Positions 7,782-11,220 of a stretch of 64,000 nucleotides of DNA are shown here, piece after piece. Both the position numbers and the translations under genes were made by a program. How positions within the stretch are numbered: position 1 is the stretch's first letter; the number at the start of each line of letters is the position of its first letter. The notes beneath the pieces are model-generated. The model made no database searches. It had not been told where the DNA came from and saw only the letters and a program-made list of their open reading frames with translations. This stretch comes from Opitutia bacterium (GTDB lineage: Bacteria > Verrucomicrobiota > Verrucomicrobiia > Opitutales > Opitutaceae). The stretch covers positions 248,001 to 312,000 of the forward strand of contig JACPIS010000001.1 in the NCBI GenBank assembly GCA_016187925.1, given 5' to 3'.

Positions 7782-9059
<1,278 letters not shown>

Positions 9060-9070
9060 GGGAAAAGGGG

Positions 9071-9101
9071 AACCACTAATTCACACTAACGAGACACTAA
9101 T
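9071..9101 (+). repeat. Left inverted repeat flanking the GxxExxY gene
   Basis: A 31-nt sequence beginning AACCACTAATTCACACTAAC. Its reverse complement matches 9501-9531 at 28 of 31 positions. The pair brackets the GxxExxY gene. Confidence 0.8.
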
Positions 9102-9108
9102 CGGGCGG

Positions 9109-9489
9109 TCACAGAACCATTCGTTTCCATTCGAGGCGAGGAAATGAGCCAAAATTGACGAGGTAGCCGACCCGCTTCCCGGTCGCTTTAAGATAGTTGA
9201 TAAGTTGCGTCTCGTGTTCGGGGACCAAGGACTTGACGGCCTTCAATTCTACGACGATCTCTCCGATTACGATCAAGTCGGCCTCATAGTGCTTCCGCAA
9301 AACGCGTCCCTTGTAGAACAGGGGCAACGCCGGCTTCGAAACGAACGGGATGCCGCGCTCGCCCAACTCTAGCTCAAGACTTTCGTGATAGACCTCCTCA
9401 AGGAAGCCGTTTCCCATCTCGTTATAGACTGCAAACGCCGCGGCCATGAAATCATAGCCCTCCTGCTGAAACAGGCCAGTCGTGCTCAT
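9109..9489 (-). CDS. GxxExxY protein (PD-(D/E)XK-like fold)
   Basis: A 126-residue member of the GxxExxY family, common and often multicopy in Verrucomicrobiota and related phyla; its biological role is not established. The name-giving motif is seen as GNGFLEEVY (residues 26-34). A possible nuclease-type active site follows: Asp71 (HYEAD), Glu81 and Lys83 (VVELKAVKSL), the D-x9-ExK spacing of PD-(D/E)XK folds. It ends at VNFGSFPRLEWKRMVL, a usual family C terminus. The gene plus short flanks is bracketed by 31-nt imperfect inverted repeats (9071-9101 and 9501-9531), so it may be a small mobile or mobilisable cassette. The genes on either side are housekeeping. Confidence 0.88.
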   Translation of the reverse strand: MSTTGLFQQEGYDFMAAAFAVYNEMGNGFLEEVYHESLELELGERGIPFVSKPALPLFYKGRVLRKHYEADLIVIGEIVVELKAVKSLVPEHETQLINYLKATGKRVGYLVNFGSFPRLEWKRMVL

Positions 9490-9500
9490 ACGTCACTTTC

Positions 9501-9531
9501 ATTAGTGGCCCGTTAGTGTGGATTAGTGGTT
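9501..9531 (+). repeat. Right inverted repeat flanking the GxxExxY gene
   Basis: A 31-nt sequence beginning ATTAGTGGCCCGTTAGTGTG that mirrors 9071-9101 with three mismatches. It lies 11 nt upstream of the GxxExxY start codon, so it could also act as that gene's leader or promoter region. Confidence 0.8.
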
Positions 9532-9549
9532 TCCAAGGGGTGACCAAAA

Positions 9550-11220
9550 TCAGCTCACGTATTTCTGGACGATCGGGATGCGGCGGCCGACGCCGAAGGC
9601 GAGGGGGGTGATCTTGAGGCCGGGGGCGGCTTGCTTGCGCTTGTACTCGGCGAGGTCGACCTTGCGGACGACATCGTTGACCACGGTGGCGTCGAAGCCG
9701 GCGGCGACGAGGTCGCGGCGCCCGAGGCCTTCCTCGACGTAGCCTTTGAGGATGGCGTCGAGCACGTCGTAGGGTGGCAGGCTGTCCTGGTCGGTCTGGT
9801 TGGGCCGCAGCTCGGCGCTGGGCGCCTTGTCGATGGTGTTCTGCGGGATGATCTCGCGTGTGCGGTTGATCCAGCGCGAGAGCGCGTAGACCTGCATCTT
9901 GAAGACATCGCTGATGACCGCGAGGCCGCCGCACATGTCGCCGTAGAGCGTGCAATAGCCGACGGCCAGCTCGCTCTTGTTGCCGGTGGTGAGCAGCAGC
10001 GAGTTGAACTTGTTGGAGAGCGCCATGAGCAGCAGGCCGCGGGCGCGGGCCTGGATGTTCTCCTCCGCGATGTCGCGCGGCCGGCCGGCGAAGACCGGGG
10101 CGAGCGTGCCCTCGGCGGCGGAGACGACATCGGCGATCGGGAGCGTGTGGAAGCGGATGCCGAGGTTGCGGGCCAGGTTCGCGGCATCGTCCTTCGAGTG
10201 GCCGCTGGAGATGGCCGAGGGCAGGCTGATGCCGAGGACGTTCTCCGGGCCCAGCGCCTCGGCGGCGATGACGGCGACGAGAGCGGAGTCGATGCCGCCG
10301 GAGAGGCCGAGCAGCGCCTGCTTGAAGCCGGTCTTGTGCGCGTAATCACGCACGCCGAGCACGAGCGCGTCGTAGATGTCGGCGAGTTCCTCCTGTCGGT
10401 AGGTCGGCGCAAGGGCCGCCTGACCGTTGGCCGGGCGGGCGGCGGGCGGGGGCGCCGCCACGTCGACGACGCGCAACTCCTCGCGGAAGGCGGCGAGGCC
10501 GGCGAGCAGCGTGCCATCCGCCGTGCAGACGATGCTGCGGCCGTCGAAGAGCAGTTCGTCGTTGCCGCCGACGGCGTTGACGTAGGCGACGGGGCAGCCG
10601 AGCGCGCGGGCGGTGTCGGCCACGAGTGTCTGGCGCACGAGGCCCTTGCCGCAGTTCCACGGGCTGGCGGAGAGGTTGAGCACCACGTCGCAACGTTGCG
10701 CGGCGAGCTGGCTGACCGGCGTGGCGTGGCTGTAGAGGCGGCCGGTCGCGATCATCGCATGCGTCCAGATGTCCTCGCAAATGGTCACACCGATGCGCCG
10801 CCGGCCGAGCGTGATGACCACCGGGGTGGTGGCGGGTTCGAAGTAGCGGTCTTCGTCAAAGACGTCGTAGGTCGGCAGGAGGCACTTGCGCGCGGAGTAG
10901 GCGATGCGGCCGTGCTGGCAGAAAGCGGCGGCGTTGAACGCCGCGCGGCCGTGCCCGGACGGGTTGGCCTCGGTGTAGCCGATGACGGCCGGCACTGCGC
11001 CGATCTCGGCGGCGATCTCGCGGGCGGCCTGCTCGACGTCGGCGACGAAGTGTTTCTTGAACAGCAGATCGCGCGGCGGGTAGCCGCACACGACGAGTTC
11101 CGGGTAAAGGACCAGCTCGGCGCCCTGCGCGACGAGCGCGCGGTAGGCATCGAGGATCCGCCGGCGGTTGCCGGCGAGGTCGCCAACGATGGTGTTGATT
11201 TGGGCGAGACCGATGCGCAT
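9550..11220 (-). CDS. nadE: Glutamine-dependent NAD+ synthetase
   Basis: Final step of NAD synthesis: amidation of nicotinate adenine dinucleotide using glutamine. The 556-residue protein has an N-terminal nitrilase-type glutaminase with triad Glu41 (LYPELVV), Lys112 (ARKCLLP) and Cys148 (GVTICEDIW). A C-terminal ATP-dependent synthetase follows, with the P-loop-like [12 protein letters not shown] near residue 310, then SSGHSKDDA and [12 protein letters not shown]. The frame remains open well upstream, but MRIGLAQIN at 11220 is the family's usual start. It is divergent from maf with about 100 nt between them. Confidence 0.96.

Follow-up and report, generated by a model that had tools for sequence, protein, structure and literature searches.

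Among the described systems, the closest to the locus studied here are RAYT genes and their REP or REPIN repeats. In the accessible parts of PMC3116915 and PMC8266576, protein and repeat co-evolve: a resident, mostly inherited gene goes with a cognate word, gene-less inverted doublets are spread between genes, and several words accompany several genes within one genome. GxxExxY genes resemble them in these respects, with cognate palindromes around the gene and dispersed doublets elsewhere. RAYTs are HuH/Y1 proteins acting on single-strand hairpins, whereas GxxExxY is a predicted PD-(D/E)XK protein, and the gene in our window matches PF13366 only, with no HuH/Y1 transposase domain. Besides, GxxExxY arms are arrays of three heptamers with a period of 8-11 nt, and the gene lies between them.

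Other known systems share part of this layout. Insertion sequences and MITEs also combine terminal inverted repeats, one small gene and gene-less derivatives with the same ends, but GxxExxY elements lack a transposase domain, no target duplication was seen at them, their arms contain internal repeats, and their terminal words differ between paralogs. Homing endonucleases are likewise small nuclease genes that could split their own palindromic site; GxxExxY sites, in contrast, are intergenic, with no intron or intein. S23 (TIGR02436) genes and 23S rRNA intervening sequences likewise place a small gene in a stem-forming element; the TIGR02436 genes analysed here also have flanking inverted repeats, and the Coxiella element has been called selfish (PMC4990558, in its accessible part). 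However, their protein is unrelated, their arms are made of 7-nt words, and the elements considered here lie between protein genes.

The name GxxExxY and PF13366 are nearly absent from the open-licence literature, occurring in 2 and 1 of 5.39 million papers, respectively. In the accessible parts of the papers, GxxExxY is named in an algal virus gene table (PMC12085832), a GxxExxY gene stands beside a reverse transcriptase (PMC8934634), and PF13366 is mentioned once more (PMC9756366). Among the papers listed, no description of a pairing between GxxExxY and palindromes was found. One of twelve typical arm strings occurred, in two animal papers judging by their titles, and a set of six arm strings was absent from the open-licence literature.

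The GxxExxY gene and its arms in the window

The window is the whole 64-kb stretch of DNA that was analysed. The element and its neighbours are as follows.

9071-9101, plus strand: left arm, with the AACC outer end at 9071-9074 and heptamers CACTAAT at 9074-9080, CACTAAC at 9084-9090 and CACTAAT at 9095-9101 (sequence, inverted repeat, motif scan)
9501-9531, minus strand: right arm, mirror of the left arm, with minus-strand heptamers at 9522-9528, 9512-9518 and 9501-9507 and the plus-strand outer end GGTT at 9528-9531 (sequence, inverted repeat, motif scan)
9109-9489, minus strand: GxxExxY protein of 126 aa, predicted PD-(D/E)XK nuclease, with E31, D71, E81, K83, Q95 and Y99 and the word-linked M15, Y22 and N23 (ORF, PF13366, TIGR04256, conservation, fold model)
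7782-9059, minus strand: hemL, neighbour outside the element (ORF, conserved neighbour; name from the sequence-only reading)
9550-11220, minus strand: nadE, neighbour outside the element (ORF, conserved neighbour; start chosen within a longer open frame; name from the sequence-only reading)

The sequence-only reading had described inverted-repeat arms with a gene just inside them, and both were found: the arms extend over 9068-9101 and 9501-9534 (34 nt, 88% complementary, 399 nt apart), form the longest and best inverted repeat within 8500-10200, and enclose the 126-aa ORF. Each arm is a triplet of heptamers, CACTAAT-tca-CACTAAC-gaga-CACTAAT with AACC outside, and the spacers (outer 3 nt, inner 4 nt) are equal in both arms. 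Allowing up to two mismatches, TTAGTGNNNNTTAGTG matched three times in the window versus 0.46 expected, a count reached in 0 of 100 shuffles; its two perfect matches are the arms themselves. When the whole 64-kb window was scanned for facing heptamer triplets with matching words, none appeared beyond this arm pair. The arms stop 7 to 11 nt short of the stop and start codons of the gene, and the only notable ORF between them is the PF13366 protein, with no transposase gene of the DDE, serine, tyrosine or HuH type. Directly outside the right arm, ggtgaccaaaatcag occurs at the window gene (9536-9549) and at its paralog L004, beside a neighbouring stop codon.

The same reading had proposed a minimal inverted-repeat cassette with a possible PD-(D/E)XK nuclease, and profiles and fold model agree on such a protein. 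It matched PF13366 (PDDEXK_3) with E 1.4e-39 and 135.5 bits (cut-off 22), its sole domain match, and TIGR04256 (GxxExxY) with E 2.5e-39 and 134.2 bits (cut-off 35). Across 30 aligned rows of the E...D...E-x-K active site, E31, D71 and K83 are invariant and E81 is present in at least 90%; a Q-x-x-x-Y motif is conserved C-terminal to them. The fold was modelled with pLDDT 94.9 and pTM 0.86 and, together with its fold matches, is restriction-endonuclease-like, as in the PD-(D/E)XK superfamily. Its best match among solved folds, and the only one with Z of at least 8, was SSO0001 (E 4.9e-5, Z 9.2), which we take to be a Cas4; lambda and LHK exonucleases came next. Q-x-x-x-Y after the active site is linked to the Cas4/lambda-exonuclease type of PD-(D/E)XK proteins, which GxxExxY resembles in motif and best fold match. 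The resemblance seen to Cas4 itself is one of fold. A sequence search among solved structures gave no relatives (one match at E 0.88), and the SSO0001 match spans residues 26-126, leaving out the predicted first helix (8-25), which in the model holds the word-linked residues 15, 22 and 23.

Some copies deviate. The paralog L006 of the window genome (G000:C6:20310-20651) carries D-P-K in place of the usual E-L-K. This may alter its nuclease site; its arms are intact. Some GxxExxY frames contain one in-frame TAA (G049, G095, G080, G127) and are perhaps decayed copies.

The window copy is old and inherited at its site rather than a recent hop. Counting the window, 12 distinct records have the gene between nadE and hemL (L124 is identical to L248), and one more record shows hemL only. 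In the protein tree, the genes from this site form one clade together with a few relatives from other sites. Their words are CACTAAT, CGCTAAT or CACTGAT, the six heptamers of a locus are mostly alike, and all six change together between orthologous elements. Among the matches listed, nadE and hemL are adjacent without the gene in G004, G007, G008, G009, G019, G021 and G028, and G001 retains the 3′ end of the gene and one arm. Losses, or repeated gains, came after. The sequence-only reading had advised a search for vacant sites between hemL and nadE, and had held that a widely conserved spacing with the gene would speak against its idea. Such conservation holds in part: seven relatives have the two genes adjacent, but 12 records share the gene, and a recent insertion was rejected on that ground.

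Arms and gene-less palindromes across genomes

GxxExxY genes are almost certainly associated with heptamer-arm inverted repeats as a family. Flanking inverted repeats exceeded the 99th percentile of 354 shifted control windows at 28 of 32 Opitutales loci. Among named genomes (drawn from the best 80 of 555 matches), the 95th percentile of 911 windows was exceeded at 65 of 78 loci and the 99th at 56, and of 100 loci fetched later, 95 and 90 passed the respective limits of the Opitutales set; these percentages are not strictly comparable, since the 99th percentile was 12.6 for the Opitutales set, the 100 loci and the ORF comparison below and 15.2 for the named genomes. By title, the named genomes included Verrucomicrobia, Planctomycetes, Bacteroidetes, Chloroflexi, Proteobacteria, Nitrospira, Acidobacteria and others. 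A score above 12.6 was obtained by 60 of 65 GxxExxY genes versus 10 of 181 other ORFs of 70-400 aa at the same named loci. Chance origin of the arms was rejected on the evidence of shuffles, control windows and control ORFs. The locus sets that preceded the 100 later loci are best-scoring matches rather than random samples, L082 (Opitutales) and L154 and L155 (named genomes, 80 reduced to 78) were excluded, and shifted windows served as controls because cross-locus controls contain shared repeats.

Most arms are triplets of the form C-R-C-N-N-A-N; their spacers measure 1 to 4 nt and tend to be equal in both arms (equal spacers earn a small bonus in the arm scan). A high inverted-repeat score is not proof of heptamer arms, as the best repeat is of another kind in, e.g., L294 and L345, and 41 of 81 and 20 of 60 GxxExxY arms received no period in the period count. 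A subgroup among L258-L357 (e.g. L271, L277, L330) has spacer 1, period 8 and the outer end CTCAC instead of AACC. The word varies from gene to gene, even inside one genome: of the four GxxExxY genes in the window genome, three have clear arms (CACTAAT in the window copy, CACGAAA in L004, CGCGGAT in L006), and L003 has a weak pair read as CACRGAG. Thus, the suggestion that the same repeats might flank other GxxExxY genes stands for the architecture, but not for the word, which goes with the protein; that other copies might lack such repeats is contradicted by the counts above.

Arms also surround the four-helix-bundle S23 genes of TIGR02436. After 7 of 30 loci (L094-L123) near contig ends were dropped, 22 of the 23 usable ones exceeded the 99th percentile of controls; their arms consist of 7-nt words, with period 7 or 14 in 16 of 21. 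The window genome has nine such genes. Elsewhere, either of two GxxExxY queries matched 8 of 72,556 plasmid records, no match occurred in 50,697 phage records, and no relative was present among 67 candidate viral stretches; on this near-absence, plasmid or phage carriage was rejected as the main route. No known RNA family matched in 11 loci.

Palindromes with the same kind of arms and no gene are spread between genes. The window genome has 38 CACTAAT-type end matches (19 per strand, up to two mismatches; control 0), including nine facing pairs 43 to 75 nt apart. Among 132 Opitutales genomes, a generic triplet pattern occurred in 53 (its reversed control once overall): 50 of 62 with a GxxExxY gene versus 3 of 70 without. 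The contrast was kept in genomes of at least 2 Mb (49/60 versus 2/33) and within six gene-variable families (19/27 versus 3/17, p 0.0016). Genomes with the gene hold 802 of the 809 matches, the gene's own arms being counted too, and 12 of the 62 lack the pattern. It was also found in 2 of 8 genomes with TIGR02436 and no GxxExxY, in a TIGR02436 search that spanned 115 genomes instead of 132. In some genomes (e.g. G100), CACGAAG palindromes occur, and none of the loci read has a GxxExxY gene with this word.

From their sequences, the gene-less palindromes look like inserted, multi-copy elements, in agreement with the mobile-cassette idea of the sequence-only reading. Among 20 palindromes from five genomes, pairs at unrelated sites had interiors in common (L361/L362, 76% over 235 columns; L369/L372, 83% over 186; L367/L368, 78% over 170), and the homology ended 4 to 9 nt beyond the arms, or 24 to 28 nt further on one side for L366/L372. 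Among the 19 with an interior long enough, eight contained a strong inner palindrome (score of at least 15; shuffles below 10), centred within 2 nt of the outer centre in seven; several of these are related, which may reduce the independent nesting events to three or four. For one CACTAAT palindrome of the window genome (L015 region, G000:C40), the corresponding site lacks the palindrome in G006, G010, G005 and, within the window genome itself, a paralogous operon. No arms are present there in G008 and G009 either, and G004 is uninformative because its flank does not align.

Flanking direct repeats showed no excess at 29 palindromes (mean longest 2.69 versus 2.49 in shuffles, 5-95% 2.10-2.90); the ends often read TTAACC...GGTTAA, which would hide a TTAA or TA duplication. 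AAGGGG, which had been put forward as a target duplication at the window gene, was rejected given this lack of excess; it lies next to the left arm but a few nt outside the right one.

Other repeats accompany these palindromes. At about 1070-1190 of L015 (G000:C40), a second palindrome with 7-nt words (TTGAGAG type) lies between two genes of the operon with the CACTAAT palindrome; a similar, shorter insert is present at this place in G006, and none in G010, G005, G008, G009 or the paralogous operon. The CACTAAT palindromes L007, L023 and L037 of the window genome enclose a further inverted family, tcatcctgagcgaagcgaaggatc ... cttcgttcagaatgaca.

Correspondence between protein residues and arm words

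From the arrangement of residues and bases, we consider it very probable that GxxExxY proteins recognise their heptamers specifically. The rules were derived from the first 96 loci with a clear word, out of 132 scanned. Base 7 was T with N23, G with H22 in proteins without N23, and A with Y22 in proteins without N23 (95/96 loci); residue 15 called base 5 as A when it was Q, M, V, T or F and as G when it was R, K or L, correctly for 64 of the 65 called. Three of the pairings (R with G, Q with A, H with G) are in line with the known preferences of these side chains.

The rules were fixed before 100 further loci were fetched; 99 were parsed (L347 has no protein), and a scan that allowed only spacers of 2-4 found words in 40. 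Base 7 was predicted correctly in 34 of the 40, versus a mean of 18.7 and a maximum of 28 after permutation and 28 for always calling T. By residue, N23-T was right in 22/22, Y22-A in 10/10 and H22-G in 2/6; in each of the six misses, the base is T and residue 23 is S, T or R. For base 5, 21 of 24 calls were right (permuted mean 15.4), a figure that the best of 2000 permutations also reached. Frozen rules for base 4 (26/40 versus 28 for the majority base) and base 2 (29/40 versus a permuted maximum of 33) did no better than controls. Two test loci (L350, L351) come from a site already met in the nadE-hemL comparison, and the test genomes belong to an order that gave part of the training loci. 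A wider scan including spacer 1 was made after the test set had been seen and is secondary: over 162 loci, it gave N23-T in 46/47, Y22 plus K/R23-A in 59/59 and H22 plus K/R23-G in 38/41, and 58 of 65 test loci were right, with one gapped locus omitted.

Paralogs within one genome were compared as well. In 16 genomes whose arms differ in the last base, a protein's own base 7 was predicted in 43 of 45 cases, whereas 5000 shuffles that exchanged arms among paralogs of the same genome averaged 24.7 and never exceeded 37.

Co-changes were counted on a tree built without the columns up to residue 36, with 154 rows kept after near-identical ones were removed. N23 changed 18 times and T7 13 times; 10 of these changes coincided in branch and direction and none ran opposite, versus a null mean of 1.28 and a maximum of 6 in 5000. 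R, K or L15 with G5 changed together 12 times (null maximum 5) and H22 with G7 five times (null maximum 3); R/K106 with A2, at six, was not above chance (P 0.07). Branch support is low in a tree of such short proteins, and on the well-supported branches of a set reduced from 136 to 126 rows by removal of near-identical ones, few independent pairs are left and none of the tests was significant. No other single residue goes with T7 as closely as N23 (phi 0.89, versus 0.70 for the runner-up). For G or A at base 7, residues 121 and 98 or 74 and 66 correlate as well as or better than residue 22, which could therefore be a clade marker.

Proposed mechanism and rival explanations

Our main reading, from sequence comparison, is that a class of palindromic repeats would have GxxExxY as its cognate protein, a pairing that resembles RAYT/REPIN but has a PD-(D/E)XK protein at its base; we give it a probability of roughly 0.58. 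The protein would bind the heptamers directly through its first helix, perhaps one protein per heptamer, with the two arms held as a symmetric assembly. Cutting is a natural inference because the active-site residues are conserved and the fold matches PD-(D/E)XK nucleases. That GxxExxY cleaves and mobilises the palindromes appears slightly favoured: the nuclease site would cut them, either in the middle or once they are extruded as hairpins, and their spread would be the work of host repair or replication. The centred nesting points to the palindrome centre or loop as the place of cutting or insertion. The gene copy itself would mostly stay put and be inherited, as RAYT genes are for REPINs.

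A fuller version falls a little short of even odds and is put forward tentatively. In it, a lone PD-(D/E)XK protein would read heptamer arrays by a simple code, cut its cognate palindromes at the centre, and spread and nest them, each paralog with its own word and across many phyla; S23 genes would be a second, unrelated protein in the same arrangement, with 7-nt words. The code, as part of this version, would pair R, K or L15 with G5; Q, M or V15 with A5; N23 with T7; Y22 plus K/R23 with A7; and H22 plus K/R23 with G7.

Self-regulation, in line with the regulatory ends that the sequence-only reading had also considered, is an unlikely alternative that would also produce a code, as expected for any specific DNA binder. 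The protein would bind the heptamers flanking its own gene to control expression, the palindromes would be extra operators or decoys spread otherwise, and the nuclease site would have another task or none. Arms within about 11 nt of the start and stop codons, and a gene long inherited at one site, would suit it. A regulator, however, needs no arm beyond the stop codon, the active-site residues are conserved, and the palindromes are multi-copy and nested with shared interiors, as operators need not be. The gene is placed exactly between its arms, where a palindrome would hold an insert, which recalls instead a homing-type selfish gene: the nuclease would cut the palindrome centre, and the gene, copied into the cut, would split the half sites and so protect its copy. 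Palindromes at the centres of others, and gene-less adjacent nadE-hemL pairs coexisting with occupied sites, fit this as well, but those gene-less sites show no empty palindrome, each resident gene of the window genome has a different word, so that no single gene was seen to have spread recently into many palindromes, and arms of 30 nt are short for homologous repair; we hold it to be quite improbable.

The two remaining alternatives deny the protein an active part. Another recombinase, e.g. a Y1 (HuH) transposase, could move the palindromes with GxxExxY as a passenger: Y1_Tnp is encoded by 64 of the 132 Opitutales genomes, 50 of which have both families, and TIGR02436 genes also lie between arms, whose presence by itself therefore does not point to a particular protein. 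Yet the palindrome pattern was present in 7 of the 12 genomes that have the gene but lack Y1_Tnp versus 2 of the 14 that have Y1_Tnp but lack the gene (p=0.038), in 43 of 50 with both and in 1 of 56 with neither. A passenger would not have residues matching its word, TIGR02436 arms differ in make-up, with their 7-nt words, and we consider this explanation very unlikely. Y1_Tnp as the driver was rejected, as the pattern does not follow PF01797. Under shared descent, protein clades and arm words would have been inherited together, with residues 15, 22 and 23 as mere clade markers and nothing recognised. The low branch support, the few independent pairs on well-supported branches and the other residues that follow a G or A at base 7 no less closely than residue 22 does are what it would lead one to expect. 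Against it stand N23, by far the best residue for T7 and with 10 co-changes, and the six heptamers that change together at one locus, as drifting heptamers would not stay alike if they were not recognised; it seems scarcely credible.

GxxExxY genes are widespread and often multicopy, with no assigned role, and the pairing with palindromes supplies a concrete partner for them and accounts for a class of intergenic repeats. If GxxExxY does mobilise its palindromes, it would be a class of its own. The correspondence of residues and bases offers a natural amino acid-base code in a nuclease family, which might serve DNA recognition by design.
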